DNA from: Saprospiraceae bacterium
GTDB taxonomy: Bacteria > Bacteroidota > Bacteroidia > Chitinophagales > Saprospiraceae
Assembly (NCBI GenBank): GCA_020630735.1
Contig: JAHDIP010000015.1
Coordinates: 1 to 49,067, forward strand
Direction of reading: 5' to 3'
DNA: 49,067 nt
Part shown: positions 797 to 46,613 of the stretch, one piece after another
Layout of the letters: each line of letters opens with the position of its first letter
Position numbering within the stretch: position 1 is the stretch's first letter
The notes under the pieces: generated by a model
Databases searched by the model: none
Told to the model about the DNA's origin: nothing
The model's input: only the letters and a program-made list of their open reading frames with translations
Program-made: the position numbers and the translations under genes

Positions 797-804
797 AAAA
801 GACG

Positions 805-1299: not shown

Positions 1300-1363
1300 T
1301 TAGTATTGAAATAAGCAACGGTATATTTTAATATCAAGACTCCCTGTATTAGGAAATGTTTTT

Positions 1364-2092
1364 TCAAGCAAACTGTTCTTCTGAATAATTATCCAATTGT
1401 TCATCCCAAGAATAAGTTGTGTAAACTAAGCGATGTTCTTTAGAATCAATATCTAAATGTTGATTCAGAATTTTTCGAATACCTTTTGTTCCACCAAAAT
1501 CGCCTAAGAACCATTTGAACAGACTACTTATGTGTATTTCTTTCTTGGCATCATCGACCGTTGTTTCTCCTTCCAAGAAAGAAGCGCTGGCTAAGTCTAA
1601 TTGTTGGTCGATATTTTTAGCAGTATAAAACCCTATAGGAGGACAACTTTTAGCTCCGCAATTAAGTGCAAAATGGATTCGATAATCAATAACTGAAACG
1701 GCTAAATCTTTTATCAAACGAGAGGCTAAAATATTTGGTAAGTAACCTAACGAAAATTTATAGCGATATTTTCTTAAAATACCATGTTCGATGTCATCCA
1801 AACTAAATGTATGCCCTGCTATTACAATCTCTTTTGAAGTATAAATTGTCTTTTTTTCGAGCTTTCTTTGCTTCCTTAATATTTGAAAAAAGGCATTATA
1901 AATATTAATCCAAAAAGCTTTTTTATACTGATCGTTTTTCAGATCTCTTTGGAATTGTTCAGAGTTTAATTGTTCTAATTGAATCACTAATTCGTCTGAT
2001 GATTTTCCCATCTTAACGATTAATAATAACTGCTCAGAAAGTTGATTACTGTTTAACTGTTCTTTCATGTGGTTAAATTTTTCTCTTTGCAA
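1364..2092 (-). CDS. DUF547 domain-containing protein
   Basis: The 242-residue protein carries the hallmarks of DUF547: AFWINIYNA near residues 59-67, SLDDIEHGILR near 95-105, and the Cys-containing HFALNCGAKSCPPI segment near 140-153. DUF547 proteins of bacteria and plants have no firmly assigned reaction; the conserved Asn, His and Cys residues have suggested a papain- or transglutaminase-like fold, which is inference here. There is no signal peptide, whereas many homologues are exported. The gene stands alone, convergent with 805-1299 and followed upstream by a 430-base non-coding stretch with a dispersed repeat. Confidence 0.8.
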   Translation of the reverse strand: MQREKFNHMKEQLNSNQLSEQLLLIVKMGKSSDELVIQLEQLNSEQFQRDLKNDQYKKAFWINIYNAFFQILRKQRKLEKKTIYTSKEIVIAGHTFSLDDIEHGILRKYRYKFSLGYLPNILASRLIKDLAVSVIDYRIHFALNCGAKSCPPIGFYTAKNIDQQLDLASASFLEGETTVDDAKKEIHISSLFKWFLGDFGGTKGIRKILNQHLDIDSKEHRLVYTTYSWDEQLDNYSEEQFA

Positions 2093-2522
2093 AAAACAAA
2101 GCGCTGGAGATGCTCATAAGGTTACTTTTGAGTGAATAATCATTCCTTTATGTACCTGTCTATCGGCAGAAAGGTCTAAACCTTAGTTATAGAAATCTCA
2201 TAAAAAATAGTTTGATCTAGTATTTAAGTAGCTCACCACAATTACTTCGGTATTTTAAAACGATCTTGCAGCCCGTCCGCTTTGCGGTTCGGAATTGACT
2301 TTCCTCATGCTATTTTTCCTCAAAAAAATCTTCGCCCTAAAATTTATCGAATTAATTATCGTAAGCTATTTACATAAAAGTAGCGAATAAAGATGGATTC
2401 TAAAGTTTGGTCGAAGACAATTATTCAAATATCTATTCCGTTTGCATTATATGCTGAAAAAGTTTAATTTGGTGATTCATTTTTAAAAACGTCGAATATA
2501 CGCTTAGTAAAATCATTATAGA
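2093..2522. other. Intergenic region with a dispersed repeat
   Basis: This 430-base stretch between the divergent DUF547 gene and the unknown gene at 2523 contains no credible reading frame. Its centre, 2223-2373, is a MITE-like repeat (separate entry) that includes a GC-rich hairpin CCGC-TTT-GCGG at about 2277-2287. I found no TAnnTTTG promoter box for either flanking gene. Confidence 0.6.
2223..2373. repeat. MITE-like dispersed element, copy 1
   Basis: The left end TTTAAGTAGCTCAC (2223-2236) is an imperfect inverted match to the right end GTAAGCTATTTAC (2361-2373). The first 33 bases from AAGTAG line up without gaps with the element at 33242-33429: AAGTAG, eight variable bases, AATTA, four variable bases, GGTATTTTAA. 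Both copies also share TATTTTTCCT followed by an A-run further in. There is no coding capacity. Ends and shared layout suggest a small non-autonomous mobile or extragenic element; this is inference from two copies. Confidence 0.5.
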
Positions 2523-3077
2523 TTGGAAATAAAATTATTTGATAACATCTCTCGTTCTCTTAATCTAGAGCTCCCCGACTGTGATCGGATGGATGATTAT
2601 TTGGATTTTATTATTCCGTTGGTGAGGCCTTGGGGAGAAGATTTGTACGAAACCGAATTTTATCTGGACACTCGTTGGCTAGAAATTAGAGATAATGATT
2701 CTTTTCACGAATCTGTCTTGCATATTTTTAGAGATAAAAATGAATACCTCATCTCTACAGATGGCAATATCTCGAAAGGCACTTGGAAATTTTTGAAAGA
2801 ATCCAACACTTTGATTTTAGATCGTGGTAATAGCGAACTTTACGATCTAGCTTTTATGAATAAAGATTTTTTTATTCTGACAAAACATGGAGATCAACAA
2901 CGTAAGGGTAAGAAAAAATATTTCGTATTGGGTCGTGAAGGAGTTGTAGGAGGATTAGAGTGGCGAGATATCATGGAGCTTCTTTTTAATCGTTACCGTC
3001 AAAATTCTCAATACATTATTACAGTAAGTGTTGTTGCTGTTATTGCCGTTATTATTTTAGTATTTTCTCTCCTATAA
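2523..3077 (+). CDS. Unknown protein with C-terminal membrane anchor
   Basis: A 184-residue protein I do not recognise. Residues 1-160 are soluble and acidic, with a beta-rich stretch (about 60-140, WLEIRDNDSF...GTWKFLKESNTLILD...FFILTKHG) reminiscent of lipocalin-like strands but not diagnostic. Residues 163-184 are one hydrophobic helix ending at the C-terminus, so the protein is probably tail-anchored in the inner membrane with its bulk in the cytoplasm. The start is TTG at 2523: an in-frame stop at 2508 leaves no earlier choice, and the next ATG would remove the first 22 residues. A strong bidirectional terminator follows at 3100-3127. Confidence 0.6.
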   Translation: MEIKLFDNISRSLNLELPDCDRMDDYLDFIIPLVRPWGEDLYETEFYLDTRWLEIRDNDSFHESVLHIFRDKNEYLISTDGNISKGTWKFLKESNTLILDRGNSELYDLAFMNKDFFILTKHGDQQRKGKKKYFVLGREGVVGGLEWRDIMELLFNRYRQNSQYIITVSVVAVIAVIILVFSLL

Positions 3078-3099
3078 ATTGGATTTGTTATAAAACACA

Positions 3100-3127
3100 A
3101 AAGGGAGCAACTAAAGTTACTCCCTTT
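3100..3127. terminator. Bidirectional terminator between convergent genes
   Basis: AAAGGGAGCAAC (3100-3111), loop TAAA, GTTACTCCCTTT (3116-3127) forms a stem with a single mismatch. It sits between the stop of the plus-strand gene at 3077 and the stop of sucD at 3154, so it can serve both. Confidence 0.75.
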
Positions 3128-3153
3128 CTATAAAATTCGTTAATTCAATTTAA

Positions 3154-4038
3154 TTATCCTACAGCTTGTGCTTTAAGTGCTTCTAACATAGTAGCACCAA
3201 TATGCGCTGGAGATTTTACAACATGTATACCACATTCTTCCATGATTCTCATCTTAGCTTCAGCAGTATCATCTGCACCACCAATGATTGCACCTGCATG
3301 CCCCATTGTACGGCCTTTAGGAGCTGTTTGACCAGCAATAAAACCGACCACAGGTTTAGTACCATTTTCTTTAATCCAATGAGCAGCATCAGCTTCCATA
3401 CTTCCACCGATTTCACCAATCATTACGATACCATCTGTATCAGGATCATCCATTAATAACTTAACAGCTTCCATAGTAGTAGTTCCGATAATTGGGTCAC
3501 CACCTATACCAATACAAGTAGACTGCCCCAAACCAGCTTTAGTAACTTGGTCTACAGCTTCGTATGTTAAAGTACCCGAACGAGAAACAATGCCGATACG
3601 ACCTGGGTTGTGAATAAAGCCTGGCATAATACCAACTTTAGCCTCACCTGGTGTCATAACACCTGGACAATTAGGTCCGATTAAGCGACAATCTTTACCA
3701 TTAAGATAAGCTTTTACTTTTACCATATCTTGCACAGGAATACCTTCTGTAATACAAATGATTACTTTGAGACCTGCATCAGCAGCTTCCATAATAGCAT
3801 CTGCTGCAAACTTAGGAGGTACAAAAATAATAGAGGTATCCGCATTCGCTTTAGCTACAGCTTCTTGTACCGAATTAAAAACAGGTTTACCAAGGTGTTC
3901 TTGTCCTCCTTTACCTGGAGTAACACCACCAACTACATTTGTACCATATTCAATCATTTGTCCAGCATGAAAAGAACCTTCTTTTCCTGTAAATCCTTGA
4001 ACAATAATATTTGAATGTTTATTTACTAAAACTGACAT
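3154..4038 (-). CDS. sucD: Succinate-CoA ligase, ADP-forming, alpha subunit
   Basis: The alpha subunit of succinyl-CoA synthetase of the TCA cycle, which with a beta subunit (SucC, not in this window) interconverts succinyl-CoA and succinate with nucleotide phosphorylation. The 294 residues match the family length. The CoA-binding Rossmann domain is at the N-terminus ([15 protein letters not shown], residues 14-28), and the phospho-histidine is His247 in GHAGAIIGG. The gene lies 36 bases downstream of the divIC-like gene on the same strand and is the last gene of the long minus-strand block; a terminator follows at 3100-3127. It is separated from sucC, as in many Bacteroidota. Confidence 0.96.
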
Positions 4039-34526: not shown

Positions 34527-35081
34527 ATGAAGAAGTTAATATTATTTTGTGCATTCTTTAGTTTCGTAGCATTTTCTGTAAATGCTCAAAAAGCTTGTCC
34601 TTATTCTAAAAAAACTGCAGATAGTACTGAAAAAGTATGCTCTAAGACTGCTGCTGCTAAATTAGCTGCTACTGACGAAAGTATCACTGAAAAAGTTTGC
34701 GCTACTTCTGGTAACGTTTCTTATGTAAAGAAATCAGTATGTGCTAAATCTGGTAATGTTTCTTACCAAGAAGTAAAGTACTGCTCTAAAAGTTCTGCTT
34801 TTGTAAATGTTTCTCCTTCTGCTGAAATGGCTGCTAAAAAGACTTCTTGCTCTAAGAAAGATAAAGCTGCTTGTGCAAAGTCTTGTGCTGCTAAAAAAGC
34901 TGCTGCTGCTAAAGCAACAAAAGTTTCTGGTAAAGAGTCTTCTTGTACTCCAGCTCAAAAAGCTAAATGTGCAAAAGAAGGAAAATCTTGCGCTAAGACT
35001 TGTGCTGCTAAAAAAGCTGCTGCTGAAGCACAAAAGCAAAAAGCGTCTAACGTTAAGTTAGTAAAAAGCGAAAATGAATAA
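34527..35081 (+). CDS. Cysteine-, lysine- and alanine-rich exported protein
   Basis: A 184-residue protein I do not recognise. Signal peptide 1-20 (cleavage after VNA or at NAQ-K). The mature part has 12 cysteines: 24, 38, 58, 72, 86, 108, 116, 120, 140, 148, 155, 159. Cys58, 72 and 86 are exactly 14 residues apart, framed by a duplicated SGNVSY unit (61-66 and 75-80). The second half carries a duplicated CAKSCAAKKAAA / CAKTCAAKKAAA unit (116 and 155). Lysine and alanine dominate, with no acidic clusters before the tail. A disulfide-stabilised or metal-binding periplasmic/surface protein is possible, unproven. It has its own promoter and a strong terminator, so it is monocistronic. Confidence 0.7.
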   Translation: MKKLILFCAFFSFVAFSVNAQKACPYSKKTADSTEKVCSKTAAAKLAATDESITEKVCATSGNVSYVKKSVCAKSGNVSYQEVKYCSKSSAFVNVSPSAEMAAKKTSCSKKDKAACAKSCAAKKAAAAKATKVSGKESSCTPAQKAKCAKEGKSCAKTCAAKKAAAEAQKQKASNVKLVKSENE

Positions 35082-35220: not shown

Positions 35221-35646
35221 TTATTTGCGATATTCTGAGTAAAACTTTTTTCGCTTATATTCTCTAAAAATATGTTTGACTAAGGGAAGTGCATTGGTTG
35301 GCAACTCCTCTATATCAAACCACTTTGTGTGTTTGAATTTCTCTGGTTCTCTTGAACGTATATCTCCTTTCCATTTTTTTGCCCTAAAAACCATAATCAG
35401 GTCTGTATGATCGGGTTTTATTCGCTGCATTACGTGGACTAAACGTAATTTTTTTCTGGATAAAACGACCCCAGATTCTTCTTCACTTTCTCGTATCAAG
35501 GCTTCTACTGCTGTTTCTTCTGCTTCAACTTTTCCACCAATTAGCGTATAATGCCCCCCATTTTTCAAGGTCTGTCTCAGTAGTAATACCTTATTACCAT
35601 GTTCTAAGATTAGGCGAACGATTAATACTGTTTTTGCGCTTGACAT
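35221..35646 (-). CDS. Nudix hydrolase
   Basis: A 141-residue Nudix-fold pyrophosphohydrolase. The Nudix box G-x5-E-x7-RE-U-x-EE-x-GU runs from Gly38 to Val60 (GGKVEAEETAVEALIRESEE), with the magnesium-binding glutamates in RESEEESG; the usual hydrophobic residue after RE is Ser54. The substrate cannot be told from the sequence; MutT-like nucleotides or NUDT-type metabolites are candidates. The C-terminus is very basic (EYKRKKFYSEYRK). It stands alone. Confidence 0.88.
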   Translation of the reverse strand: MSSAKTVLIVRLILEHGNKVLLLRQTLKNGGHYTLIGGKVEAEETAVEALIRESEEESGVVLSRKKLRLVHVMQRIKPDHTDLIMVFRAKKWKGDIRSREPEKFKHTKWFDIEELPTNALPLVKHIFREYKRKKFYSEYRK

Positions 35647-35999
35647 TATTATTTTAAGTAAATGAATAAGAAGCTAAATTAAAAGAATATTTAGCCAATA
35701 GCAGTAAAAGCGTCTTTTTTTTGAGTTCTCTTATGTCAAAATTCAAAATATAGGTCATAAAACATCAATTTTCGAGCAAAAATGATTAGCTAAATTCTAT
35801 TAAATAATAGTTAATTTTATTTATTTGAAGCAATTTTATAGAATGATTCGACATTAGTTCTTAAATTCGCATTTCAATATTTTAGTAGTAAATTGAAAAT
35901 CCCAATTACCTATTCTATTACCAAGCCCTTCCAAAATTTAGAATATCTAGAGTATGCTTTTTTATAAAAAGCTGATACTCTTTTCTTAAAAGTTTGATT
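35647..35999. other. Intergenic region upstream of the lipid locus
   Basis: About 350 AT-rich bases between the divergent Nudix gene and the CBS-like gene. No full TAnnTTTG box or coding frame was found. The only structure is the hairpin at 35950-35980, just before the CBS-like gene. Confidence 0.45.
35950..35980 (+). promoter_or_regulatory. Hairpin directly upstream of the CBS-like gene
   Basis: GAGTAT (35950-35955) pairs with ATACTC (35975-35980), and GCTTTTT (35956-35962) with AAAAAGC (35966-35972), with a TG bulge and a TAT loop. TTTTCTT follows. It ends 19 bases before the ATG, so it could be a terminator/attenuator or a structure that limits ribosome access. Confidence 0.45.
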
Positions 36000-37031
36000 A
36001 TGATGTATAATAATGTATTGGAAACGATTGGAAATACTCCTTTGATCCGCTTAAATAAATTTTCGAGGTGGATCAAATCTACTGTTTATGCAAAAGTAGA
36101 GGCGTATAACCCTGGTCACTCGTCAAAGGATAGAATAGCCCTTTTTATGATCGAAAAAGCAGAGCGAGAAGGCAATATCAAACCTGGAGGCACGATCATC
36201 GAATCTACTTCTGGTAATACTGGTTTTAGTCTAGCTATGATTTGCTTGATCAAAAATTACCGTTGTATACTAACCGTTCCTAATAAAATTTCTGATGAAA
36301 AACTAAATCTACTTCGTGCATTACGAGCAGAAGTTGTTGTTTGCCCTGTTGATGTAAAACCTGAAGATCCTAGATCATACTACTCAAAAGCCGAACAGTT
36401 TTCGAGAGATATTCCTAACTCTTACTACATTAACCAATATTTTAATGATGCCAATATTGAGGCACATTATGCTACGACAGGTCCTGAAGTATGGAGACAA
36501 ACGGAAGGAAAAATAACGCACTATGTAGCAACAGTTGGTACAGGAGGAACACTATGTGGAACAGGTAGATATCTTAAAGAGCAAAATCCTGATATTAAAA
36601 TTATTGGTATCGATGCTTATGGCTCTGTTTTGACTAAATTCCACGAAACAGGAAAGTTGGATAAATCCGAAATATATCCTTACAAGCTCGAAGGAGTTGG
36701 TAAAAATATGATACCCGATAATGTTGATTTTGACATTATTGACCAAATGGTTAAAGTAGAAGACAAAACGAGTGCTTTTAGAGCACGCCAGCTCGCTCGT
36801 CGAGAAGGTATTTTTGTAGGCTACTCAAGTGGTGCGGCAATGCAAGGCTTATTTAAACTAAAAGATCAGTTGAAAGAAGACGACTTAGTCGTTGTTTTAT
36901 TCCCTGATCACGGTAGTCGCTACCTCGGTAAAATATACAATAACGAATGGATGGAAGAGTCTGGTTTCCATTACGGATACGACAATTATAAGTATATGCT
37001 CAAGTTCAGAAAATTCTTACGAGGCATTTAA
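36000..37031 (+). CDS. PLP enzyme of the cystathionine beta-synthase type, probable cysteate synthase (CapA-like)
   Basis: A 343-residue fold-type II PLP enzyme. Lys43 in GHSSKDRIA binds PLP, STSGNTG (about 71-77) and GTGGT bind the cofactor phosphate and substrate, and GYSSGAAM lies near the C-terminus. It resembles the catalytic half of cystathionine beta-synthase, with no C-terminal CBS domains. In Capnocytophaga a CBS-related enzyme, CapA, makes cysteate from O-phosphoserine and sulfite, the first step to capnine. The alpha-oxoamine synthase 5 kb downstream makes that reading attractive here. Plain cysteine synthase or CBS remain possible. Start at the ATG pair 36000/36003; a TTG at 35994 adds only two residues. 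A terminator follows. Confidence 0.8.
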   Translation: MMYNNVLETIGNTPLIRLNKFSRWIKSTVYAKVEAYNPGHSSKDRIALFMIEKAEREGNIKPGGTIIESTSGNTGFSLAMICLIKNYRCILTVPNKISDEKLNLLRALRAEVVVCPVDVKPEDPRSYYSKAEQFSRDIPNSYYINQYFNDANIEAHYATTGPEVWRQTEGKITHYVATVGTGGTLCGTGRYLKEQNPDIKIIGIDAYGSVLTKFHETGKLDKSEIYPYKLEGVGKNMIPDNVDFDIIDQMVKVEDKTSAFRARQLARREGIFVGYSSGAAMQGLFKLKDQLKEDDLVVVLFPDHGSRYLGKIYNNEWMEESGFHYGYDNYKYMLKFRKFLRGI

Positions 37032-37055
37032 CTTTTCTATTTTCATAGACAAACT

Positions 37056-37094
37056 AAAATGGTCACAAGTAAATTCGTTATTTGTGACCATTTT
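37056..37094 (+). terminator. Terminator after the CBS-like gene
   Basis: AAAATGGTCACAA (37056-37068) and TTGTGACCATTTT (37082-37094) form a 13-base-pair stem with a 13-base loop, 25 bases past the stop. It separates the CBS-like gene from the operon that starts at 37253. Confidence 0.75.
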
Positions 37095-37252
37095 ATATAC
37101 TGAAACCAAACAGTTTCTGGAATACCAAACGATTAGAACTACTAAAAATCAACCAATAACTACTAACGACGATCCTTAATCTGAATGCCAGTAGGCATAT
37201 TTTGGCTATCTTCGCCGTCGAAAACGATTAAACAAATAGAGAAACGTCTACA

Positions 37253-38236
37253 ATGAAAGTACTGATAACAGGAGCTGATGGTATGCTCGGTAGTAATTTG
37301 ACCCGTGAACTTCTCTCGCGTGGTCATCAGGTAAAGGCTTTTTTACTTCCCAATTCGCCCTCCAAATCATTGGATGGTTTAGCCATCGAAAAAGTAACTG
37401 GAAATATTCTAAAGTTGGAAGAACTAGAAAAAGCGATGCAAGGCTGCGATGCCATGGTACACGCTGCCGCTAATACCAATATCTGGCCTAGTCGTTCTGA
37501 AATTGTCCGAAAGGTAAATATTGATGGCACAAAAAATGTAATCGCAGCAGCACTAAATGCCAAGCTCAAACGCTTAGTATACATCGGGACAGCCAACTCT
37601 TTTGGCTTTGGTTCTAAAGAATCACCTGGTGATGAAACTCGTAGTTACCAATCTTCAAAATATGGACTCGATTATATGGATTCGAAGTACGATGCGCAGC
37701 AACTTGTACTCAAAGCCGTCAAAGAAAAACAACTTCCAGCCTTGATTGTCAATCCTACTTTTATGTTTGGACCTTATGATTCTAAACCTGGAGCTGGGGC
37801 AATGATTATCGCTATTTATCAGCAAAAGGTACCAGGTTTTGCACAAGGGGGGAGGAATTATATTTATGTAAAAGATGTGGCGATTGCCATTGCTAATGGT
37901 TTGGTACAAGGTAAGGTTGGTGAGTGCTATATAGCCGGAAATGAAAATCTAAATTACCAAGAAGCCTTTTCGAAAATTGCTAAAGTAACAGGAGTAAAAG
38001 CACCAAGTATTAAAATAGCTCCTGTTTTTAGTAAAGCATATGGTATGCTTGGTTCGATGTATGGTTCTGTTTTTAAAACAACTCCCAAGGTGAGTTATGC
38101 TATGGCTCAAATATCGAGCGATGGTCATTACTTTTCTGCGAAGAAGGCCGTAAGTGAATTAGGCATGCCTCAAACTGATATTGAAATTGCCATCAAAGAA
38201 TGTTTTGATTGGCTGAAAGCAAACGGATACTGCTAA
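37253..38236 (+). CDS. NAD-dependent epimerase/dehydratase (extended SDR)
   Basis: A 327-residue extended short-chain dehydrogenase. The NAD(P) motif is TGADGMLGSNL (6-16), and the catalytic Tyr141-x3-Lys145 lies in YMDSK, with Ser/Thr at GTANSFG (112-118). It resembles 3-beta-hydroxysteroid dehydrogenase/dihydroflavonol-reductase proteins. In Caulobacter ceramide synthesis a reductase of this same extended-SDR type reduces the keto group of the sphingoid base, so a similar role on a sulfonolipid or sphingolipid base is plausible here. Its stop overlaps the start of the next SDR gene by one base (TAATG). A weak box TATCTTCG lies 38 bases upstream. Confidence 0.82.
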   Translation: MKVLITGADGMLGSNLTRELLSRGHQVKAFLLPNSPSKSLDGLAIEKVTGNILKLEELEKAMQGCDAMVHAAANTNIWPSRSEIVRKVNIDGTKNVIAAALNAKLKRLVYIGTANSFGFGSKESPGDETRSYQSSKYGLDYMDSKYDAQQLVLKAVKEKQLPALIVNPTFMFGPYDSKPGAGAMIIAIYQQKVPGFAQGGRNYIYVKDVAIAIANGLVQGKVGECYIAGNENLNYQEAFSKIAKVTGVKAPSIKIAPVFSKAYGMLGSMYGSVFKTTPKVSYAMAQISSDGHYFSAKKAVSELGMPQTDIEIAIKECFDWLKANGYC

Positions 38237-39045
38237 TGAGTAAATTACAAGACAAGGTTGTCATCATCACTGGCTCCAGCATGGGAATAGGCAAAACGAT
38301 GGCAATTGAAATGGCAAAGCGTGGCGCTAAAATTGTGCTGAATGCCCGCAACAAAGAACGTTTGCAAAAAACGCATTCAGAACTAAAAGCCTTAGGGTAT
38401 AATGTGATCGCTGTCGATGGTGATGTCACAAATTTAGAGCATTGCGAGAATCTAATTAATCAAGCCATTAATGCTTTTGGAAAAGTAGATGTACTAGTCA
38501 ATAATGCAGGTATTTCTACTAGAGGTACAATAGAAGATTTGAATCCTGCTGTCTTCAAAAAAGTAATGGAAGTCAATTATTTAGGTTCTGTATATCCGAC
38601 ACAATATGCGATACCTCATTTAAAAAAATCTGGTGGTAGTGTAATTTTTATATCGAGTGTTGCTGCCATTCATGGTATCCCTAATTTTTCGGTCTATAGT
38701 TCTTCCAAAATGGCATTGACGGCCCTAGCAGAATCGCTCAAAAATGAATTGGCTGAAACAGGAGTTCATGTTGGAATTGCTTATGTAGGTTTTACTGAAA
38801 ATGATCCTGACAAAAAAATCTATGACACCGATGGGAAGATAATAGCTCAACCCAATAATGCAGTCATCAAGGCAGAGCCTCCTCAAAATGTTGCCAATCG
38901 AATTATAAAAATGATTGAACGCAAAACATTCAAATCGGTATTTACGCCAATAGGAAAATTAAATGCCTTTATGAACCGTTTGTCTCCTAGTCTTGTCGGC
39001 AAAATATTAGGCATCAATTATCAAAAGAATAAAAAGAAAAACTGA
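38236..39045 (+). CDS. Classical short-chain dehydrogenase, candidate 3-ketocapnine/3-ketosphinganine reductase
   Basis: A 269-residue classical SDR. Cofactor motif TGSSMGIG (12-19), NNAG (89-92), and catalytic Asn114, Ser141, Tyr154 and Lys158 (YSSSK) are all present. The C-terminus has a basic, partly hydrophobic extension (SPSLVGKILGINYQKNKKKN) that could associate with the membrane, as in ketosphinganine reductases. The start at 38236 overlaps the stop of the upstream gene, which implies coupling; 27 bases upstream another in-frame start lies inside that gene. CapC/KDSR-type reductases belong to this family, but I cannot assign the substrate from the sequence alone. Confidence 0.8.
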   Translation: MSKLQDKVVIITGSSMGIGKTMAIEMAKRGAKIVLNARNKERLQKTHSELKALGYNVIAVDGDVTNLEHCENLINQAINAFGKVDVLVNNAGISTRGTIEDLNPAVFKKVMEVNYLGSVYPTQYAIPHLKKSGGSVIFISSVAAIHGIPNFSVYSSSKMALTALAESLKNELAETGVHVGIAYVGFTENDPDKKIYDTDGKIIAQPNNAVIKAEPPQNVANRIIKMIERKTFKSVFTPIGKLNAFMNRLSPSLVGKILGINYQKNKKKN

Positions 39046-39049
39046 CCAC

Positions 39050-39766
39050 ATGAGTCCAGTAGAATACACTTCTATACATATTTTTGGAATTTTGATCGAA
39101 GAACCGATGACTACACTAACGGATTTATTGACCGCTAGTGTTTGTTACTATAGTTTTTTTATGCTTCATAAATTGGGTAATACAGATCGGGGCTCTGTTT
39201 TTTTGAAGTATTATTTTCTGTTTATGGGCTTAGGTACTACTTGTGCCGCTTTTCTTTCTCATGGTATCCTTTACTGGTCGGGATATAACTGGAAAACACT
39301 AGGCTGGACGCTTTCGGCTATTGGCTTGCTTTGTATGGAAAATGGAGCTTTGGCTTTTTATCAAAAAGAAAAAAAAGCTAATGTTCTTAATTGGCTAAAG
39401 TATGTTTTCATAGCTCAACTTATTATATTTGTACTCGTAATTGCCAATCCAAGCACACGGGTTTTTCAAGTTGTTAAAATCAACTCAACTATTGCCATGA
39501 TGTTGATTAACCTCCCGTTTTTTGCCTACCTTTACTATCAAACAAAAGGAAAAGGCTACAAAATGGTCTTTTGGGCACTTTTGACAACAGTTATTCCTGG
39601 CATTACATTTAGTGCAGAATGGACATTACATAAATATTTTAATTATCACGATATCAGCCATGTTTTGATGGCCATTTGTTCCTTCCTTATTTTTAAAGGG
39701 GCTTACCAGTTAAGCATGGAACAAAAGCAAGAAAAACTTGTTAAACCTCAAACAATGGCTATATAA
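39050..39766 (+). CDS. Seven-helix membrane protein with CREST/alkaline-ceramidase-like motifs
   Basis: A 238-residue polytopic protein with about seven hydrophobic helices. Near the N-terminus is EEPMTTLTD (17-25), in TM2 His71 (FLSHG), in TM3 Glu97, and in the last helix His200-x3-His204 (HDISH). The H-x3-H of TM7 and a TM2 histidine are marks of the CREST superfamily of membrane hydrolases, which includes alkaline ceramidases; the usual TM2 serine four residues before the histidine is not there. I recall a Bacteroidota family DUF6962 of this kind. It lies 4 bases after the SDR and 22 before the hydroxylase, so it belongs to the same operon. Amide hydrolase or synthase on a lipid is inference. 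Confidence 0.65.
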   Translation: MSPVEYTSIHIFGILIEEPMTTLTDLLTASVCYYSFFMLHKLGNTDRGSVFLKYYFLFMGLGTTCAAFLSHGILYWSGYNWKTLGWTLSAIGLLCMENGALAFYQKEKKANVLNWLKYVFIAQLIIFVLVIANPSTRVFQVVKINSTIAMMLINLPFFAYLYYQTKGKGYKMVFWALLTTVIPGITFSAEWTLHKYFNYHDISHVLMAICSFLIFKGAYQLSMEQKQEKLVKPQTMAI

Positions 39767-39788
39767 CTTTTCAACCAAAAATTAGAAT

Positions 39789-41060
39789 ATGGGTGGTTTA
39801 CAATATGCTGGATATATTATTCCATTTTTGTTATTGATCAACATTTTAGAATTATACATTTCTAAACGAAAGAATGTAGAAGTTTATCGGCTAAGCGATA
39901 CGCTTGTCAATGTTTGCTGTGGGATATTAGAGCGGCTATTTGACTTATTTTTTGTCGTTTTACTTTATTTTTTATTCGATTTTATTTATACGAATATTTC
40001 TCCATTTCATATTCCGACGAATATTGTCACATGGATCATAGCACTCTTTGCTGTCGACTTTTTGGCGTATTGGCATCATCGTCTTAGTCACGAAGTCAAC
40101 TTTATGTGGGCAGCGCATATCGTACATCATCAAAGTGAAGAACTCAATATTACAACGGTATTTAGAGTATCAGCCTTTGCAGTAATCAATCGTACATTCT
40201 TTTGGATTTGGTTGCCATTGATTGGATTTTCACCAGCCTTATCTACTTCTGTTATTTTGTTTGTAGGCTTATTTCAATTTGTAACACATACTAGGTTAGT
40301 TGGCAAATTAGGTATACTTGAATATCTATTTGTTACGCCTTCACATCATAGAGTTCATCATGCCAGAAATGATAAATACATTGATAAAAATTATGGACAT
40401 GTATTCATTATTTGGGATAAGATGTTAGGTACTTTTGAGCCAGAAACAGAAGAAGCAGAATTTGGTATTATCTCTGGTTTCGAAAGTTCAAATCCTTATT
40501 GGGCTTATTTCTATTATTGGGTAAACCTTTTCAAAAGAGCTAAAAAAACCAAGAAGTGGTCAGATAAAATAAAGGTCTTTTTGATGCCGCCAGCTTGGTC
40601 ACCAGATGATGTACCATTAAGCGAACCAAGATATGAATTGACCGAAGATGGAAAACGGAAGAAGTATACCCTTGATATGCCTTTCCGTCTACAAATGTAT
40701 ACCTTCATCAATGTCTTTATGAATCTCTTTATTTTCATAGCTTTATTAATTAATAATAAAAACTGGCTTGAGGCAGGGGAGTATCTACCAATTGTTCAGT
40801 TAACTAGTATTATTATTGTTTCGATTTTAGCTTTTGGTCCCCTTATGGAACGCAAAAATTGGGGGCTAAAATTGGATTATTTCCGACTAGCTTTTTTAGC
40901 GGTTAATATCCCAATATTCTTTTGGTCAAGTAGTTATCCCGCACTATTCATTGGTTTAGGCTTACTGTATGTAGCTATTATGGCATTTTGGATAATAAGA
41001 ATGCGTGACTACTTTGGTGCAACCCCACCAGATATTCGTAATGAAGTAGCTTTTTCTTAA
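39789..41060 (+). CDS. Sterol desaturase/fatty acid hydroxylase family protein, alkylglycerol-monooxygenase-like
   Basis: A 423-residue integral membrane di-iron enzyme. The histidine clusters are HHRLSH (96-101), HIVHH (110-114), His167, HHRVHH (186-191) and His204 in NYGH, the full set for the family. Two or three helices precede the core and about four follow it (from residue 305), which is the layout of alkylglycerol monooxygenase (TMEM195-type) rather than of short sterol desaturases. The reaction is likely O2-dependent hydroxylation of a lipid chain or ether; the substrate may be the lipid made by this locus. It is the last gene of the 37253 operon. Confidence 0.85.
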   Translation: MGGLQYAGYIIPFLLLINILELYISKRKNVEVYRLSDTLVNVCCGILERLFDLFFVVLLYFLFDFIYTNISPFHIPTNIVTWIIALFAVDFLAYWHHRLSHEVNFMWAAHIVHHQSEELNITTVFRVSAFAVINRTFFWIWLPLIGFSPALSTSVILFVGLFQFVTHTRLVGKLGILEYLFVTPSHHRVHHARNDKYIDKNYGHVFIIWDKMLGTFEPETEEAEFGIISGFESSNPYWAYFYYWVNLFKRAKKTKKWSDKIKVFLMPPAWSPDDVPLSEPRYELTEDGKRKKYTLDMPFRLQMYTFINVFMNLFIFIALLINNKNWLEAGEYLPIVQLTSIIIVSILAFGPLMERKNWGLKLDYFRLAFLAVNIPIFFWSSSYPALFIGLGLLYVAIMAFWIIRMRDYFGATPPDIRNEVAFS

Positions 41061-41099
41061 TAAACTAACTATTAATAAGGTTTTTGTACCCTGTTTTAG

Positions 41100-41107
41100 T
41101 AACTTTG
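41100..41107 (+). promoter_or_regulatory. -7 promoter box before the alpha-oxoamine synthase gene
   Basis: TAACTTTG matches TAnnTTTG and lies 73 bases before the start at 41180, in the 119-base gap after the hydroxylase gene. The nearest TTG is only 13 bases upstream (41084-41086), so the -33 element is unclear. It suggests separate or added transcription of the synthase. Confidence 0.4.
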
Positions 41108-41179
41108 CAGTCGTTTTTTAGAACAGCTGAACGTTTTTCATTTAACAAACAGCATTTCCATACATCAAAATTACACAAT

Positions 41180-42418
41180 ATGGATATCTTTGAGAAGATC
41201 AAAAAAAATAGAGGACCACTCGGTCAATATGCAGCTTCAGCAGAAGGATACTATATCTTTCCAAAACTAGGCGGCGAACTTTCGAACAGAATGACCTTTA
41301 GAGGTAAAGAAGTCATCTGTTGGAGTGTCAATAACTACCTAGGTCTAGGTAATCATCCTGAAGTACGAAAAATAGATGGAGAATCTGCCGCTCGATGGGG
41401 ACTTGCTTACCCTATGGGATCTCGTATGATGTCTGGAGATACAGACATGCACGCACAACTAGAAAAAGAATTGGCAGCATTTGTTCAAAAAGAATCTGCG
41501 GTACTTGTTAATTTCGGTTATCAAGGAATCATGTCTGCTATTGATGCGGTACTTGGTCGTCGAGATGTAGTTGTCTACGACTCAGAAAGTCATGCTTGTA
41601 TTGTAGATGGTGTACGTATGCACTTAGGAAAGCGTTTTGCTTTTGACCATAACGATATTGAAAGTTTAGAGAAAAACCTAAAACGTGCAACTAAGATTGT
41701 AGAAGAAACAGGTGGTGGTATTTTAGTCATTTCTGAAGGTGTCTTTGGTATGCGTGGCGACCAAGGAAAACTTCGTGAAATTGTAGCACTAAAAGAAAAA
41801 TATAGCTTCCGCTTAATGGTTGATGATGCACACGGTTTTGGTGTATTGGGTAAAACAGGTGCAGGAGCAGGTGAAGAACAAAATGTACAAGACGAGATCG
41901 ATATATACTTTGCTACCTTCGCAAAATCAATGGCAAGTACAGGTGCATTTTTAGCTGGTGATCAGCAAATGACTGAATTTTTGAAGTACAATATGCGTTC
42001 GCAAGTTTTTGCAAAGTCGATGATGATGCCACTTGTAGAAGGTGCACTCAAGCGTTTGGAAATGATTCGTACTATGCCTGAACTAAGAGAAAATCTTTGG
42101 AAGGTAGTTAATGCCCTTCAGTCTGGTTTGAAAGAAAAAGGGTTTAATATAGGAGATACGAATAGTTGTGTAACACCTGTTTACTTACAAGGTACACCAG
42201 AAGAAGCAACAGGTTTAGTTTACGACCTTCGTGAACATCATAGCCTTTTCTGTTCTATCGTAGTTTATCCTGTTATTCCTAAAGGAATGATCTTACTTCG
42301 ATTGATTCCAACCGCAGTACACACTCTAAAAGATGTAGAAGAAACAATAAATGCTTTTGCGGCAGTCTCAACCAAACTCAAAGAGGGCGGTTATAAAGAT
42401 TCTGTTGTAAAACGATAA
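41180..42418 (+). CDS. Alpha-oxoamine synthase, probable cysteate-C-fatty acyltransferase (CapB/SulA-like)
   Basis: A 412-residue PLP-dependent decarboxylating acyltransferase of the serine palmitoyltransferase/KBL/AONS family. Lys249 in FATFAKSMAS binds PLP; SVNNYLGLGNHPEV, MGSRMMSGDTDMH, SESHACIVDG and VDDAHGFGVLGKTGAG are family landmarks. The N-terminus (MDIFEKIKKNRGPLGQYA) and the overall pattern agree with my memory of the Bacteroidota enzyme that condenses cysteate with fatty acyl thioester to ketocapnine, rather than with Sphingobacterium-type serine palmitoyltransferase. That choice is from memory and needs a tree. Start ATG 41180; an upstream in-frame TTG at 41084 precedes the promoter box. 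A terminator follows at 42452. Confidence 0.82.
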   Translation: MDIFEKIKKNRGPLGQYAASAEGYYIFPKLGGELSNRMTFRGKEVICWSVNNYLGLGNHPEVRKIDGESAARWGLAYPMGSRMMSGDTDMHAQLEKELAAFVQKESAVLVNFGYQGIMSAIDAVLGRRDVVVYDSESHACIVDGVRMHLGKRFAFDHNDIESLEKNLKRATKIVEETGGGILVISEGVFGMRGDQGKLREIVALKEKYSFRLMVDDAHGFGVLGKTGAGAGEEQNVQDEIDIYFATFAKSMASTGAFLAGDQQMTEFLKYNMRSQVFAKSMMMPLVEGALKRLEMIRTMPELRENLWKVVNALQSGLKEKGFNIGDTNSCVTPVYLQGTPEEATGLVYDLREHHSLFCSIVVYPVIPKGMILLRLIPTAVHTLKDVEETINAFAAVSTKLKEGGYKDSVVKR

Positions 42419-42451
42419 AAGACTTCTAAACAGAGGTTCTTTTAACATCTC

Positions 42452-42489
42452 AAAAAACCTGACCGCCTCTTGAGGTAGTCAGGTTTTTT
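42452..42489 (+). terminator. Terminator after the alpha-oxoamine synthase gene
   Basis: AAAAAACCTGAC (42452-42463) pairs with GTCAGGTTTTTT (42478-42489), with an inner CCTC-TT-GAGG helix (42466-42475). It is a strong intrinsic terminator between the synthase and the VOC gene. Confidence 0.82.
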
Positions 42490-42558
42490 GGAATATGTTA
42501 GGAAGCTAAATCTCCAACATATTTTTCCTTTGTAAAAACTTAGTAATACTATTCAATC

Positions 42559-43620
42559 ATGAGAAAACCAATCATTAGTGGTATCCAACAAGTCGGAATA
42601 GGCAATCCTGATGTCTATGGTACATGGAAATGGTACCGCCAAAATTTTGGAATGGACCTGCCTATTTTTGATGAAGCAGCAGAGGCTGGCTTGATGCTTC
42701 CGTATACTGGAGGCGAACCTCGCTCCCGTCATGCCGTATTAGCCATCAATTATCAAAGTGGTGGTGGTTTGGAAATTTGGCAATATACGAGCCGTACTTC
42801 TGAACCTGCCAAATTTGAAATTGCCATTGGCGACTACGGTATTTATGCTACAAAATTTAAAAGTAGAAATGTAAAAGCTTCTTATGATTTCTTGAAATCA
42901 AAAGGGCATAAACTACTAGGCAACATATCAAAACGTCCTGATGGCGGCGAGCATTTTTTCTTGAAAGATCCTTATGATAATATCCTCGAAGTTGTAGAGG
43001 CTGATGATTGGTTTAAACAAACAAAGCATCACTCAGGAGGAGTGTATGGTTGTACGATTGGTGTGTCTGATATCGAAAAAGCTCGTGTGGTTTATTCTGA
43101 CATTTTGGGCTACGATACGGTTGTCTATGATGAGCAAGGCACCTTTGAAGACCTTGCTGTATTGAATGGTGGCGATGCAAGATTCCGTCGAGTGTTGCTC
43201 ACGCATAGCCAAGAACGCAAAGGAAGTTTTAGCCGTATCTTAGGTAAAAGTGAAATCGAATTGGTACAAGTAGAAGGTCGAACTCCTCGAAAGATTTTTG
43301 AAAATCGTTTCTGGGGAGACATTGGTTTTATCCACCTTTGTTTTGATATTAATGGGATGGATGAAATGCGTGAGTTATGTACCTCAAAAGGTTTTCCATT
43401 TACTGTCGATAGTAGCGATAGTTTTGATATGGGCGAAGCGGCTGGCCATTTCTCTTATATAGAAGATCCCGATGGTACATTGATCGAATTTGTAGAAACA
43501 CACAAAATACCTATTCTAAAAAAGCTAAATTGGTACTTGGATTTAACAAAACGTAATCCTGAAAAATCATTACCCAACTGGATGCTAAGTGCGCTTTCGC
43601 TTAATAGAGTAAAAGATTAA
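42559..43620 (+). CDS. Two-domain VOC (glyoxalase/dioxygenase fold) protein
   Basis: A 353-residue protein made of two vicinal-oxygen-chelate modules, about 6-150 and 158-315. Each ends with the metal-ligand type strand: HFFLKDPYDNILEVVEAD in the first and HFSYIEDPDGTLIEFVETHK in the second; other likely ligands are Gln11/Gln12 (GIQQVGIGN), Glu in GLEIWQY, and His in FIHLCFDI. It may be an Fe- or Zn-dependent dioxygenase, lyase or isomerase; the substrate is unknown. A C-terminal amphipathic part (LKKLNWYLDLTKRNPEKSLP) follows. The gene has its own upstream space after a terminator, so a link to the lipid locus rests only on nearness. Confidence 0.78.
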   Translation: MRKPIISGIQQVGIGNPDVYGTWKWYRQNFGMDLPIFDEAAEAGLMLPYTGGEPRSRHAVLAINYQSGGGLEIWQYTSRTSEPAKFEIAIGDYGIYATKFKSRNVKASYDFLKSKGHKLLGNISKRPDGGEHFFLKDPYDNILEVVEADDWFKQTKHHSGGVYGCTIGVSDIEKARVVYSDILGYDTVVYDEQGTFEDLAVLNGGDARFRRVLLTHSQERKGSFSRILGKSEIELVQVEGRTPRKIFENRFWGDIGFIHLCFDINGMDEMRELCTSKGFPFTVDSSDSFDMGEAAGHFSYIEDPDGTLIEFVETHKIPILKKLNWYLDLTKRNPEKSLPNWMLSALSLNRVKD

Positions 43621-43710
43621 TACCCCAATTTGAATTTCGGAAAACAATATTTCAAAAAATCAATTTATAAAATGCCAATTGTCCTTTGTGGATGATTGGT
43701 ATTTTTTATA

Positions 43711-43757
43711 GATAGTAGTTGAATATGCACGAAAGATAGTAGTAGATGCGACGAAAG
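43711..43757. repeat. Imperfect tandem duplication
   Basis: GATAGTAGTTGAATATGCAC followed by GAAA (43711-43734) is repeated with changes as GATAGTAGTAGATGCGAC and GAAA (from 43735). About 24 bases per unit. Function unknown. Confidence 0.45.
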
Positions 43758-43762
43758 AAGCA

Positions 43763-43823
43763 GGCCCTAAAGGGCCGACCAACGGGAGCTACAGATAGCT
43801 TGGCCATGCAATGGCGTGCCAAA
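43763..43823. repeat. GC-rich run of small hairpins
   Basis: GGCCC-TAAA-GGGCC (43763-43776), AGCTA-CAGA-TAGCT (43787-43800) and TTGGC...GCCAA enclosing CCAT-GCA-ATGG (about 43800-43823) follow one another in a stretch far richer in GC than its surroundings. It resembles an extragenic palindromic repeat or a structured RNA; no other copy was found in this window. Confidence 0.45.
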
Positions 43824-43860
43824 AAAAATATTATTACGATTCAATAGGAATGATTAAATT

Positions 43861-43888
43861 GCAAATGGAAAAATTTTAAACAAATGAA
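43861..43888 (+). repeat. Direct repeat of the mannosidase translation start region, copy 1
   Basis: GAAAAATTTTAAACAAATGAA (43868-43888) recurs exactly at 44036-44056, with GCAAA(T/A) before both. At the second site the ATG is the chosen start of the mannosidase gene. Here the ATG (43884-43886) is followed by a stop after four codons, so it looks like a remnant of a duplicated gene start, or a conserved leader element. Confidence 0.5.
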
Positions 43889-44051
43889 ACGACCTTGACT
43901 AAGGAATAGGCATATGAGGGAATGATTAAGCTGATTCTTTTTTAGTATCGTGCAAAAGGTGCTGTTAAAAACAGCGAAATATAAAAGCGTAGTTGAAAAC
44001 TATGCTTAGCAGATATAGTTGTTTTTTGGCAAAATGAAAAATTTTAAACAA

Positions 44052-46613
44052 ATGAAGTTAGTATATCTTTCTATTTGTTGTCTACTTTTAAGTATGACAC
44101 TTTTAGCTTGTGTTCAGAGTGATACCAATGCTGTAATAAAAAAAGTACCCTACTCTATCGAACTAAAAAACTGGGAATTCAGACGTGCACCTAAGGGTAA
44201 ATGGTTTAAAACATCGGTGCCGACTAGTGTACATGCAGCCTTATATGACGATAATGAAATAGAAGATCCGTTCTACAGAAATAATGAAAAAAAACTACAA
44301 TGGATCGAAGACGAAAACTGGGAGTTCCAATCAACTTTTGACCTTGATTCTGTTTTTTTTAAGCGTGATTTTGTCTATCTCAATTTTGAAGGATTAGATA
44401 CCTATGCAGATATTTATTTAAATGGTGAAAAACTTGGTGCCGCAGATAATATGTTTCGTTCGTGGCGATACGATGTCAAAAACAAACTAAAAACAAAAAA
44501 CAATTTACTCCACCTTGTTTTCTACTCTGCTACTAAAAAAGATGATCGAAAAATGGCAGAGCTTGGTTATGAACTACCAGGCGGCAAACGGGTATTTACT
44601 CGAAAGGCACAATTTCATTATGGCTGGGATTGGGGACCACGATTTGTCACTACAGGCATTTGGAAATCTGTACAATTAAAATCATTCGATGATGCACATT
44701 TCGAAGATGTCTATATTCAACAAAAAGAACTGACCGATGAATCTGCCAATATTGAAGCTCAACTTAAGATCAATTCTCAACATTATCAGGAAGCAAAAGT
44801 GGCGGTAACAGTAGGAGATGAATATGTTGAAAAAAATGTCTCATTAGCAAAAGGCATAAATACTATTTCTCTTGATGTAAACATTACTGATCCTATTAGG
44901 TGGTGGTCAAATGGATTAGGTGAGCCTCATTTATATCCTGTAAAAACGACATTAAGCATCAATAGAAAAATGGCAGATATGGATCAGAAAAAAATTGGTC
45001 TACGTACTATAGAGCTAGTAACCGAAAAAGATGAAAAAGGAGAAAGTTTTTATTTCAAATTAAACGGAATTCCTGTTTTCATGAAAGGTGCCAACTATAT
45101 CCCTCAAGATATTTTTCATACTAGAGTAACGAAAGATGATTACAAAAAACTAATCGAACAAGTTGTCATTTCAAATATGAATATGCTTCGTGTTTGGGGA
45201 GGAGGCATTTATGAACAAGAACTCTTCTATGAATTATGTGATAAAAATGGAATTCTTGTTTGGCAAGATTTCATGTTTGCTTGCGCCATGTATCCGAGCG
45301 ATGCTGACTTTTTAGAAAACATTAAACTAGAGGCGGAAGAAAATGTTCGGCGCTTGCGCAATCACCCAAGTATTGCACTTTGGTGTGGTAATAATGAAAA
45401 TTCGGAAGGTTGGCACCGTTGGGGCTGGCAAGCTAATTTCGGAAAACGAAAAAAAGAGACGATAGCTCAAGGCTACGATAAAGTATTCAAAGAAATATTA
45501 CCTGCCACCGTAAAAACTCTATCGCCTGATATTGCCTATTGGGAATCTTCACCAAAATATGGTAGAGGCAATCCGCAACATCAATTTGAAGGCGATGCAC
45601 ATTATTGGGGCGTTTGGCACGATGCAGAGCCTTTCGAAATGTTCGAACAAAAAGTACCTCGTTTTATGAGTGAATTTGGTTTTCAATCTTTTCCAGAATT
45701 AAAAAACATTGAAAGTTTTACGGAAGAAGAAGATCATGCTATCGACTCTGAAGTAATGCTCGTTCACCAAAAACACCCAAGAGGTAACAAGCTCATCAAA
45801 GAATATATGGAACGGGACTATAATACACCTAAAGACTTTGAACACTTTTTATATGTCAGCCAGCTATTACAAGCTGAAGGTATGCGAATAGGTATTGAGG
45901 CACATCGCCGTGCGATGCCTTATTGTATGGGATCGCTTTATTGGCAACTAAATGACTGTTGGCCAGTAGCTTCTTGGTCGAGTATAGATTATTATGGTCA
46001 TTGGAAAGCATTACAATATTATGCGAAACAATCATTTGAACCATTAATTACTTCCCCTACCCTTTTTGAAGACAGTCTACATGTCTATCTCGTTTCTGAT
46101 TTGCAAGAGACAGTAAATGCTGAATTACGCATTACAGCAATGGATTTTCAAGGTACGGAATTGGCAAAAGCGAGTATTCCTGTTACTATTAGCCCTAATA
46201 ATAGTTCAATTTACTATCGTGAAAAAGTAAGTGAGTTGCTCAATGGACATGCAAAAGATAATATTGTTTTCGATATTAGACTGAATGATGAAGAAACCAA
46301 TTTGCTATACCAACGCAATTTTTACCTGGAAAAGCCAAAAAAGCTTCAATTGCCTATTACTGATATTAAAAAAGAAATCCTAAAAAATGATACAGGATTT
46401 AGTATTAAATTGAAAAGCGATCAGTTGGCAAAAAATGTTTATATCAGTAGCCCTAGAGCTGGGTTTTTCAGTAATAATTTTTTCGATATTCTTCCTAATC
46501 AACCAGTTACGATCAATTTTGTACCTAGCGAACAAATGGAAGACTTTGGTGAAGATTTGAATATTATTTCACTTGTAGACAGCTATGAAGTTAAGAAAAA
46601 TAAAAAAAAGTAA
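44052..46613 (+). CDS. Beta-mannosidase-type glycoside hydrolase family 2 lipoprotein
   Basis: An 853-residue exported enzyme that likely removes terminal beta-mannose from oligosaccharides. The lipoprotein signal peptide is MKLVYLSICCLLLSMTLLA-C, which argues for ATG 44052 over ATG 44034 and TTG 44019. GH2 parts: N-terminal jelly-roll sugar-binding domain (about 25-200, WEFQSTFDL...FEGLDTYADIYLNGE), immunoglobulin-like domain, then the TIM barrel with VWGGGIYEQELFYELCDKNG, the acid/base Glu449 in GNNENSEGW and the nucleophile Glu541 in MSEFGFQSFP. C-terminal beta domains complete it. It probably acts in the periplasm or on the cell surface in glycan use. No SusC/SusD genes are near. Confidence 0.9.
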   Translation: MKLVYLSICCLLLSMTLLACVQSDTNAVIKKVPYSIELKNWEFRRAPKGKWFKTSVPTSVHAALYDDNEIEDPFYRNNEKKLQWIEDENWEFQSTFDLDSVFFKRDFVYLNFEGLDTYADIYLNGEKLGAADNMFRSWRYDVKNKLKTKNNLLHLVFYSATKKDDRKMAELGYELPGGKRVFTRKAQFHYGWDWGPRFVTTGIWKSVQLKSFDDAHFEDVYIQQKELTDESANIEAQLKINSQHYQEAKVAVTVGDEYVEKNVSLAKGINTISLDVNITDPIRWWSNGLGEPHLYPVKTTLSINRKMADMDQKKIGLRTIELVTEKDEKGESFYFKLNGIPVFMKGANYIPQDIFHTRVTKDDYKKLIEQVVISNMNMLRVWGGGIYEQELFYELCDKNGILVWQDFMFACAMYPSDADFLENIKLEAEENVRRLRNHPSIALWCGNNENSEGWHRWGWQANFGKRKKETIAQGYDKVFKEILPATVKTLSPDIAYWESSPKYGRGNPQHQFEGDAHYWGVWHDAEPFEMFEQKVPRFMSEFGFQSFPELKNIESFTEEEDHAIDSEVMLVHQKHPRGNKLIKEYMERDYNTPKDFEHFLYVSQLLQAEGMRIGIEAHRRAMPYCMGSLYWQLNDCWPVASWSSIDYYGHWKALQYYAKQSFEPLITSPTLFEDSLHVYLVSDLQETVNAELRITAMDFQGTELAKASIPVTISPNNSSIYYREKVSELLNGHAKDNIVFDIRLNDEETNLLYQRNFYLEKPKKLQLPITDIKKEILKNDTGFSIKLKSDQLAKNVYISSPRAGFFSNNFFDILPNQPVTINFVPSEQMEDFGEDLNIISLVDSYEVKKNKKK

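Follow-up and report, generated by a model that had tools for sequence, protein, structure and literature searches.

Does a seven-gene locus in the genome of a Saprospiraceae bacterium encode the synthesis of sulfonolipids, and if so, what might its genes beyond the described pathway contribute? Sulfonolipids are sulfur-containing relatives of sphingolipids that occur as outer-membrane lipids, and they have been linked to gliding, gut inflammation and choanoflagellate multicellularity. A CapA-CapB-CapC pathway to capnine has reportedly been described in Capnocytophaga ochracea and Ornithobacterium rhinotracheale, and the steps already assigned comprise a cysteate synthase, a condensing enzyme and several reductases. 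Accessions for the pathway appear in PMC12927429. The locus in question lies at positions 36000-43620 of the window, by which we mean the whole 49,067-nucleotide stretch analysed (contig JAHDIP010000015.1, assembly GCA_020630735.1). We conclude that it is very probably a capnine-type sulfonolipid biosynthesis operon of a Saprospiraceae-like bacterium, in which a protein of the VOC family is the predicted partner of CapB, the condensing enzyme. While the core pathway was already known, a VOC family that tracks CapB is new here and, as it often lies beside capB, makes a concrete candidate for a missing pathway step.

Seven plus-strand genes fill the interval, as judged from open reading frames (ORFs) and from Pfam and NCBIfam families (Table 1): a capA-like gene, genes for an extended and a classical short-chain dehydrogenase/reductase (eSDR and cSDR), a DUF6962 gene, an FA_hydroxylase gene, capB and the VOC gene. 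The gaps between them are, in order, 221, -1, 4, 22, 119 and 140 bp; the cSDR start is best set at the ATG at 38236, which overlaps the eSDR stop by 1 base (TAATG). A sequence-only reading of this DNA had placed six gene classes here on one strand, and the ORFs were found at those places and on that strand. Five of its classes were borne out by Pfam and NCBIfam, including the PALP, alpha-oxoamine synthase and SDR genes that make up the CapA, CapB and reductase enzyme types. The sixth, a “membrane hydrolase-like” protein, is a DUF6962 protein for which neither Pfam nor NCBIfam gave a hydrolase match, and the VOC gene had been left unlisted although it lies inside the interval.

We asked if this arrangement recurs in other organisms (sampled genomes are labelled G, with G000 the genome of the window, contigs C, fetched loci L and families f). 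The capA gene lies upstream of capB in 11 of the 38 capB stretches of relatives, which include one 41% paralogue, one capB fragment and several stretches that end at contig ends, as well as in four loci from other families of the class (L143, L144, L151 and L152). The order capA-eSDR-cSDR-capB-VOC is repeated in L192 (the same contig as that of G035, and counted once) and L199, and also in L186, where a cupin gene is inserted; L187 holds a similar cluster with further genes inserted. The closest named loci come mostly from Saprospiraceae. Because capA recurs upstream of capB and the gene order is repeated in relatives, the clustering is more than chance.

The condensing enzyme and its CapA-like neighbor

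Is the synthase of this locus a cysteate fatty acyltransferase or a serine palmitoyltransferase (SPT)? Compared with solved structures, it scored 616 bits against 28eh, a cysteate-C-fatty acyltransferase (CFAT), and 557 bits against 7u7h, the SulA of Alistipes finegoldii, versus 235 bits against the SPT 3a2b. A phylogenetic tree of 66 rows placed it with 28eh and 7u7h in a 57-row group supported at 100/100, apart from SPT and from rows that we label KBL-like (about 30% identity), although the tree program warned of long branches meeting across this split between CFAT and the SPT and KBL-like rows. Lys281 of SulA stands where SPT has an alanine and was proposed as a marker separating the two enzymes, according to PMC9304779. 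The synthase of the window keeps this lysine. Across the 66 aligned rows, the position is lysine in 56, alanine in 3 (the SPT reference and two SPT-like sequences), asparagine in 6 KBL-like rows and arginine in 1, a paralogue from G016. Because its CFAT and SulA scores are more than twofold higher, its clade is fully supported and Lys281 is retained, the identification of the synthase as CapB/SulA, a predicted cysteate fatty acyltransferase, is strongly supported. The sequence-only reading had made the same call and had held that a grouping with SPT or KBL would speak against it; the synthase groups with neither, and it does not have the alanine of SPT. No SPT-level enzyme was found in the window's own genome, where the sole further synthase match at E ≤ 1e-40 scored 159 bits at 30% identity. 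Besides that genome, CapB-level matches (>570 bits) are present in 36 of 59 relatives, with a fragment in G009.

Which enzyme would then supply cysteate? The protein encoded at 36000-37031 has the CapA model NF053679 as its top NCBIfam match (513 bits, versus 414.7 bits for the cystathionine beta-synthase (CBS) model), and against solved structures its scores fall from 416 bits for 9k2p to 296 for CBS and 230 for CysK. Pfam detects PALP in it and no CBS domain, and its gene sits beside capB in the manner expected of capA. In a tree, it groups with clustered CapA-like proteins (92/92). Further, homologues are fused to CapB on three Saprospiraceae contigs: in L216, one 809-aa ORF (782-3211) joins a CapA-like part (62% identity) to CapB (74%), and the same join is seen in L195 (3-1895) and in G009 (L070, 1-1439, minus strand), in ORFs that end at contig ends. 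In L216 and L195, the VOC gene follows the fused gene. Because of these fusions and the recurrent place of its homologues upstream of capB, we read the protein as most likely CapA, the predicted cysteate synthase.

Two further observations concern capB in other genomes. The paralogue with arginine for Lys281 (G016:C16:211860-213059, L069) is 41% identical to CapB, and G016 carries an ordinary CapB and an SPT-like gene as well. In L047, L048, L053, L054, L056, L058, L061, L062 and L065-L067, from other families of the order, capB has no capA beside it; the genes that are beside it resemble bamD, rpoZ, coaBC, a DUF4835-like gene and recN.

A VOC protein that tracks CapB

Does the VOC protein belong to the same pathway as CapB? 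In an evenly drawn phylum sample of 296 genomes, the window's own genome being in both sets, CapB (E ≤ 1e-110) was found in 107, or at least 108 with G235, and VOC (E ≤ 1e-50) in 41. All 41 VOC genomes have CapB, 40 of them within the CapB list and the last, G235, by way of a CapB-like fusion at E 1.0e-108. This co-occurrence has a Fisher's exact p of 3e-21, without correction for kinship; the looser-threshold search was extended to only 14 of the 189 genomes not listed for CapB, and CapB may be undercounted in genomes that have no VOC. Among 60 relatives, VOC is present in 14, 13 of which have CapB if the G009 fragment is counted (p 0.011).

The two genes are also physically linked. VOC comes after capB in the window, in G035, G017, G029 and G034, and in L186, L187, L189, L190, L195, L199 and L216. 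The order is SDR-capB-VOC, with overlapping ORF ends, in G121 and G215, and SDR-VOC-capB in L236, from a Flavobacteriaceae metagenome-assembled genome (MAG). In G310 and G275, VOC follows a single ORF joining a fatty acyl-AMP ligase (FAAL), an acyl carrier (ACP) domain and CapB, and in G235 an FA_hydroxylase gene stands between an upstream FAAL-ACP-CapB fusion and VOC. Such fusions are in keeping with the preference of SulA for acyl-ACP that is reported in PMC9304779. In L264 (9935-16336), from a MAG labelled Spirochaetes, VOC and a CapB homologue of 44% identity meet tail to tail; past the latter lie a cysteate synthase of the archaeal type (TIGR03844, 476.7 bits against a cut-off of 324.9) and genes resembling cysN and cysD. 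VOC was also located in the cultivable species Marivirga arenosa (L227) and Phaeodactylibacter luteus (L208). Because VOC tracks CapB across genomes and adjoins it repeatedly in several lineages, its predicted membership of the sulfonolipid pathway is well supported.

We then considered what reaction VOC might catalyze. Its AlphaFold (AF2) model, made from 39 sequences, has a pLDDT of 93 and matches best the dioxygenase PcpA (Z 24.3, rmsd 3.0, 275 residues), with maize glyoxalase I at a Z of about 22 and methylmalonyl-CoA epimerases at a “middling” 8.3-9.2, across part of the model only, in matched ranges that begin in its first portion and end in its last. While it has a fold in common with these proteins, VOC differs from them in its partnership with CapB, and a comparison with solved structures at E ≤ 0.01 found none related to it in sequence over the full length. 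Its NCBIfam matches are all far under cut-off. Four residues stand out as invariant: Q11, in all 36 rows that span it, and E72, H259 and E310, in 39 of 39. The metal ligands of E. coli glyoxalase I (GloA) are H5, E56, H74 and E122. H259 and E310 of VOC align with H74 and E122 of GloA, whereas the match of Q11 depends on extending the alignment without gaps, and that of E72 on strand order alone, against the printed alignment register. Such a set of residues, Gln-Glu-His-Glu, would be more in keeping with an isomerase or epimerase than with a dioxygenase. In PMC11211663, two product peaks were interpreted as epimers. Because of this putative residue set and these epimeric products, our guess would be an isomerase or epimerase role, such as C2 epimerization of 3-ketocapnine. 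The literature covered, mostly open-access and available in part, yielded no paper that connects sulfonolipids with a VOC or glyoxalase protein, and the sole mention of a glyoxalase in the portion of PMC8319176 covered is a row of a roseobacter gene table. VOC is probably a sulfonolipid-pathway enzyme without a description in the literature searched.

Weighing the readings and the choice of reductase

Several observations weigh against a sulfonolipid operon in which VOC partners CapB. The 6.6-Mb assembly of the window's genome is broken into 434 contigs and is 96% complete, and it carries a further SDR of the type linked to VOC, hereafter A4, on another contig (G000:C285, 6.5e-113). VOC is absent from 67 of 108 CapB genomes, and therefore is not a core step. 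Among relatives, G057 is the sole genome with VOC and no CapB match (it is 83% complete, and its VOC is partial). In the named VOC loci, the best 80 of at least 574, capB lies inside the fetched flank (≤10 kb) in 10 of 79, a count that covers those flanks and not the rest of the genomes. Among the loci examined, DUF6962 and an FA_hydroxylase of the window's type adjoin capB only in the window. The remaining points concern CapA, and they would also fit a capA-like gene that is a cystathionine beta-synthase or cysteine synthase merely lying nearby, with cysteate coming from elsewhere: the protein falls short of the 600-bit cut-off of NF053679; the genome encodes a 451-aa paralogue with a CBS domain (G000:C199) that is 63% identical to it and that the CapA and CBS models score almost alike, at 481 and 481.5 bits; and CapA is not told apart from CBS by the tree. 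The earlier CapA assignment is upheld by its top model, by the ranking of structures and by the CapB fusions but not by that cut-off, and the CapA/CBS phylogeny that had been suggested as a check grouped the protein with its clustered counterparts without separating the two enzymes. Against an unrelated CBS or cysteine synthase stand the missing CBS domain and the recurrent spot just upstream of capB; the fusions of homologues to CapB lowered its odds further, and we consider it highly unlikely.

Could the locus instead make sphingolipids, with a synthase that uses serine? The enzyme is of the same superfamily, and three NCBIfam SPT models match it at 296, 270 and 197 bits, yet all of these are under cut-off, and the structure scores, the CapB clade, Lys281 and the capA-like neighbor make this scarcely credible. 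For the core pathway, these lines of evidence support the choice of sulfonolipids over sphingolipids that the sequence-only reading had made. A different objection is that VOC and CapB co-occur through the shared ancestry of the genomes and not through function. Indeed, 26 of the 41 VOC genomes belong to family f42, and in those f42 genomes with positions at hand, at least tens of kilobases separate VOC from capB. The 41 genomes are nonetheless spread over ten families (f1, f24, f25, f26, f27, f29, f42, f58, f60 and f63), each with CapB, and the linkage of VOC to capB recurs in CapB settings as different as fusion ORFs and a locus that also holds a cysteate synthase, so that ancestry by itself seems an improbable explanation. 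A functional partnership of VOC with CapB in a sulfonolipid operon is the reading that we carry forward.

Which SDR would reduce 3-ketocapnine? Pairs of eSDR and cSDR genes were found in G035, G016, G029, G027, G051 (where the pair is beside capB), G098, G223 and G129, and more loosely in G075; G001 has an unpaired eSDR homologue of 36% identity. The pair also occurs in stretches without capB (L103, L104, L140, L141 and L139, a 4.5-kb contig; more loosely in L142). Matches to the cSDR (E ≤ 1e-40) favor CapB genomes among relatives, 20 of 38 versus 1 of 22 others, in a set that mixes SDR clades, and the eSDR is rare, with 5 of the 296 phylum-sample genomes at E ≤ 1e-60, our own counted.

A second kind of SDR lies directly upstream of VOC, on the same strand, in 35 of the 76 loci that have an upstream ORF. 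These VOC-linked SDRs form one clade (98/92), to which the SDR before capB in G017 is sister (99/90), and the cSDR of the window falls in a different clade. Their profile (A4, E ≤ 1e-70) matches 85 of the 296 genomes; the CapB list includes 71 of these, and G235 brings the number to 72. Eleven of the 13 remaining A4-bearing genomes have a synthase with the alanine of SPT, G209 has KBL-like synthases only, and G192 has a 218-bit synthase match whose site 281 was not read. Because its genomes have CapB or, in most of the other cases, an SPT-type synthase, the A4-type SDR is a reasonable candidate for the enzyme that reduces the ketones of long-chain bases in general. Around the A4-type gene in 20 genomes, no family was common to more than four loci except SDRs.

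Since an A4-type SDR is present in the window's own genome, the SDRs of the cluster need not be the main reductase. The idea that the cSDR is a general reductase by positional replacement was weakened once that gene was found. The sequence-only reading had an SDR as the third enzyme of the pathway: two SDRs do lie in the cluster, but which SDR acts is unsettled, with the gene on G000:C285 as a third candidate. It is close to an even call, tilting slightly against, that the pair is not the main 3-ketocapnine reductase, that the A4-type SDR is, and that the pair would modify the lipid further or serve a variant substrate. The wide occurrence of A4 with CapB, its places directly upstream of VOC and directly before capB (in G121 and G215), and the scarcity of the eSDR speak for this division of labor, while the position of the pair between capA and capB in the window and close relatives, and the preference of cSDR-like matches for CapB genomes, speak for the pair. 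According to PMC11211663, two species have three active reductases apiece, and none of the genes adjoins cfat or Cys, whereas the two SDR genes here lie between capA and capB.

Predicted route, lipid modification and surroundings

CapA makes cysteate from O-phosphoserine and sulfite, and the CapA-like enzyme of the operon would be expected to do likewise. CapB would condense cysteate with a fatty acyl thioester to give 3-ketocapnine, as its homologues have been shown to do, and an SDR, either of the operon's pair or the third one elsewhere in the genome, would reduce this to capnine. The FA_hydroxylase probably adds a hydroxyl group to either the base or the acyl chain, and VOC, as the partner of CapB, would probably carry out a metal-dependent proton transfer beside the 3-ketocapnine ketone, for which C2 epimerization is our guess. 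N-acylation would fall to an enzyme that was not found in the cluster. A putative lead for this step is a PlsC-like acyltransferase encoded near VOC in 13 named loci (PF01553, 60.6 bits for the member in L237; eight others are 25-38% identical to it, 9 of 13 having been aligned), in the order acyltransferase-SDR-VOC in L202, L237 and L239.

Compared with CapA-CapB-CapC, the operon has the same CapB by homology, tree and Lys281, a CapA-like gene upstream and SDR candidates, but it adds the two SDRs, DUF6962, the FA_hydroxylase and VOC, and its CapC equivalent is unsettled. With A. finegoldii SulA and C. gleum CFAT, as described in PMC9304779 and PMC11211663, it shares the clade of the condensing enzyme and the diagnostic lysine.

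How might the hydroxylase fit in? The FA_hydroxylase has the histidine motifs HRLSH, HIVHH and HRVHH. The Cupin_8 and FAH250 queries covered only certain sets of the fetched loci. A Cupin_8-type gene directly follows capA in L186, L187, L036 and L041 (by BLAST, and by Pfam for L186), four clusters that have a cupin gene rather than the DUF6962 and FA_hydroxylase genes of the window, and adjoins VOC in G219. What sets the rosette-inducing sulfonolipid RIF-1 apart from other known capnoids is hydroxylation at position 2 of the acyl chain and at position 5 of the base (PMC3463246), and the literature covered names no enzyme for either group. Candidates for RIF-1-like hydroxylations are the FA_hydroxylases of the window and of G235 and the relatives' Cupin_8 proteins, and their genes are candidates for the basis of modified sulfonolipid forms. 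Tentatively, and with considerable doubt, we suggest that VOC may be a dedicated and so far undescribed step of sulfonolipid synthesis in a large subset of CapB bacteria, a metalloenzyme acting beside the ketone of 3-ketocapnine (for example, by epimerizing C2 so that the SDR receives a single stereoisomer), and that exchangeable lipid oxygenases beside CapB or VOC (an FA_hydroxylase in the window and G235, a Cupin_8 protein in five loci of relatives) may make RIF-1-like hydroxylated sulfonolipids. This subfamily of FA_hydroxylase did not prove to be a conserved part of the pathway: its closest relatives (≤40% identity) have no cap genes in the three stretches covered, L158, L161 and L162. The DUF6962 protein is predicted to be a membrane protein; its AlphaFold model, from a single sequence, has a pLDDT of 46 and was not used.

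Table 1. Genes of the locus in the window and FAAL-ACP-CapB fusion ORFs of other loci
Feature	Positions	Strand	Basis or remark
capA-like pyridoxal phosphate (PLP) enzyme, PALP family, without CBS domain	36000-37031	+	Pfam/NCBIfam
eSDR, HpnA-like; candidate reductase or lipid-tailoring enzyme	37253-38236	+	PF01370 102 bits; TIGR03466 256 bits, under cut-off
cSDR, candidate 3-ketocapnine reductase	38236-39045	+	PF00106 186 bits; NF004825 262 bits (cut-off 215)
DUF6962 protein	39050-39766	+	PF22285 128.7 bits
FA_hydroxylase, predicted lipid hydroxylase	39789-41060	+	PF04116 92.1 bits; OlsE model 65.5 bits, under cut-off
Predicted capB/sulA alpha-oxoamine synthase	41180-42418	+	PDB 28eh 616 bits, 7u7h 557 bits; tree; Lys281 equivalent
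Two-domain VOC protein	42559-43620	+	Co-occurrence and adjacency with CapB; AF2 model
FAAL-ACP-CapB fusion, L133	2145-5576		VOC next
FAAL-ACP-CapB fusion, L134	9271-12597	-	VOC next
FAAL-ACP-CapB fusion, L307	3472-6852		VOC next, with FA_hydroxylase between

Sigma-70-like sites number 25, with 30.0 expected. A Bacteroidota-type promoter pattern has 7 matches in the window versus 4.2 expected, and none within 35600-43620; we assign no promoter. Terminator-like sites number 10 versus 5.1 expected across 35600-44200, and none was used as evidence. Downstream of the operon, 44037-46613 (plus strand) encodes a beta-mannosidase-type GH2 glycosidase with no evident link to it. Upstream, 34527-35081 (plus strand) encodes a small Cys- and Lys-rich protein that begins like a signal peptide and matches no family; in L033, L035, L036, L038, L059, L186 and L187, a homologue precedes capA by one or two genes.

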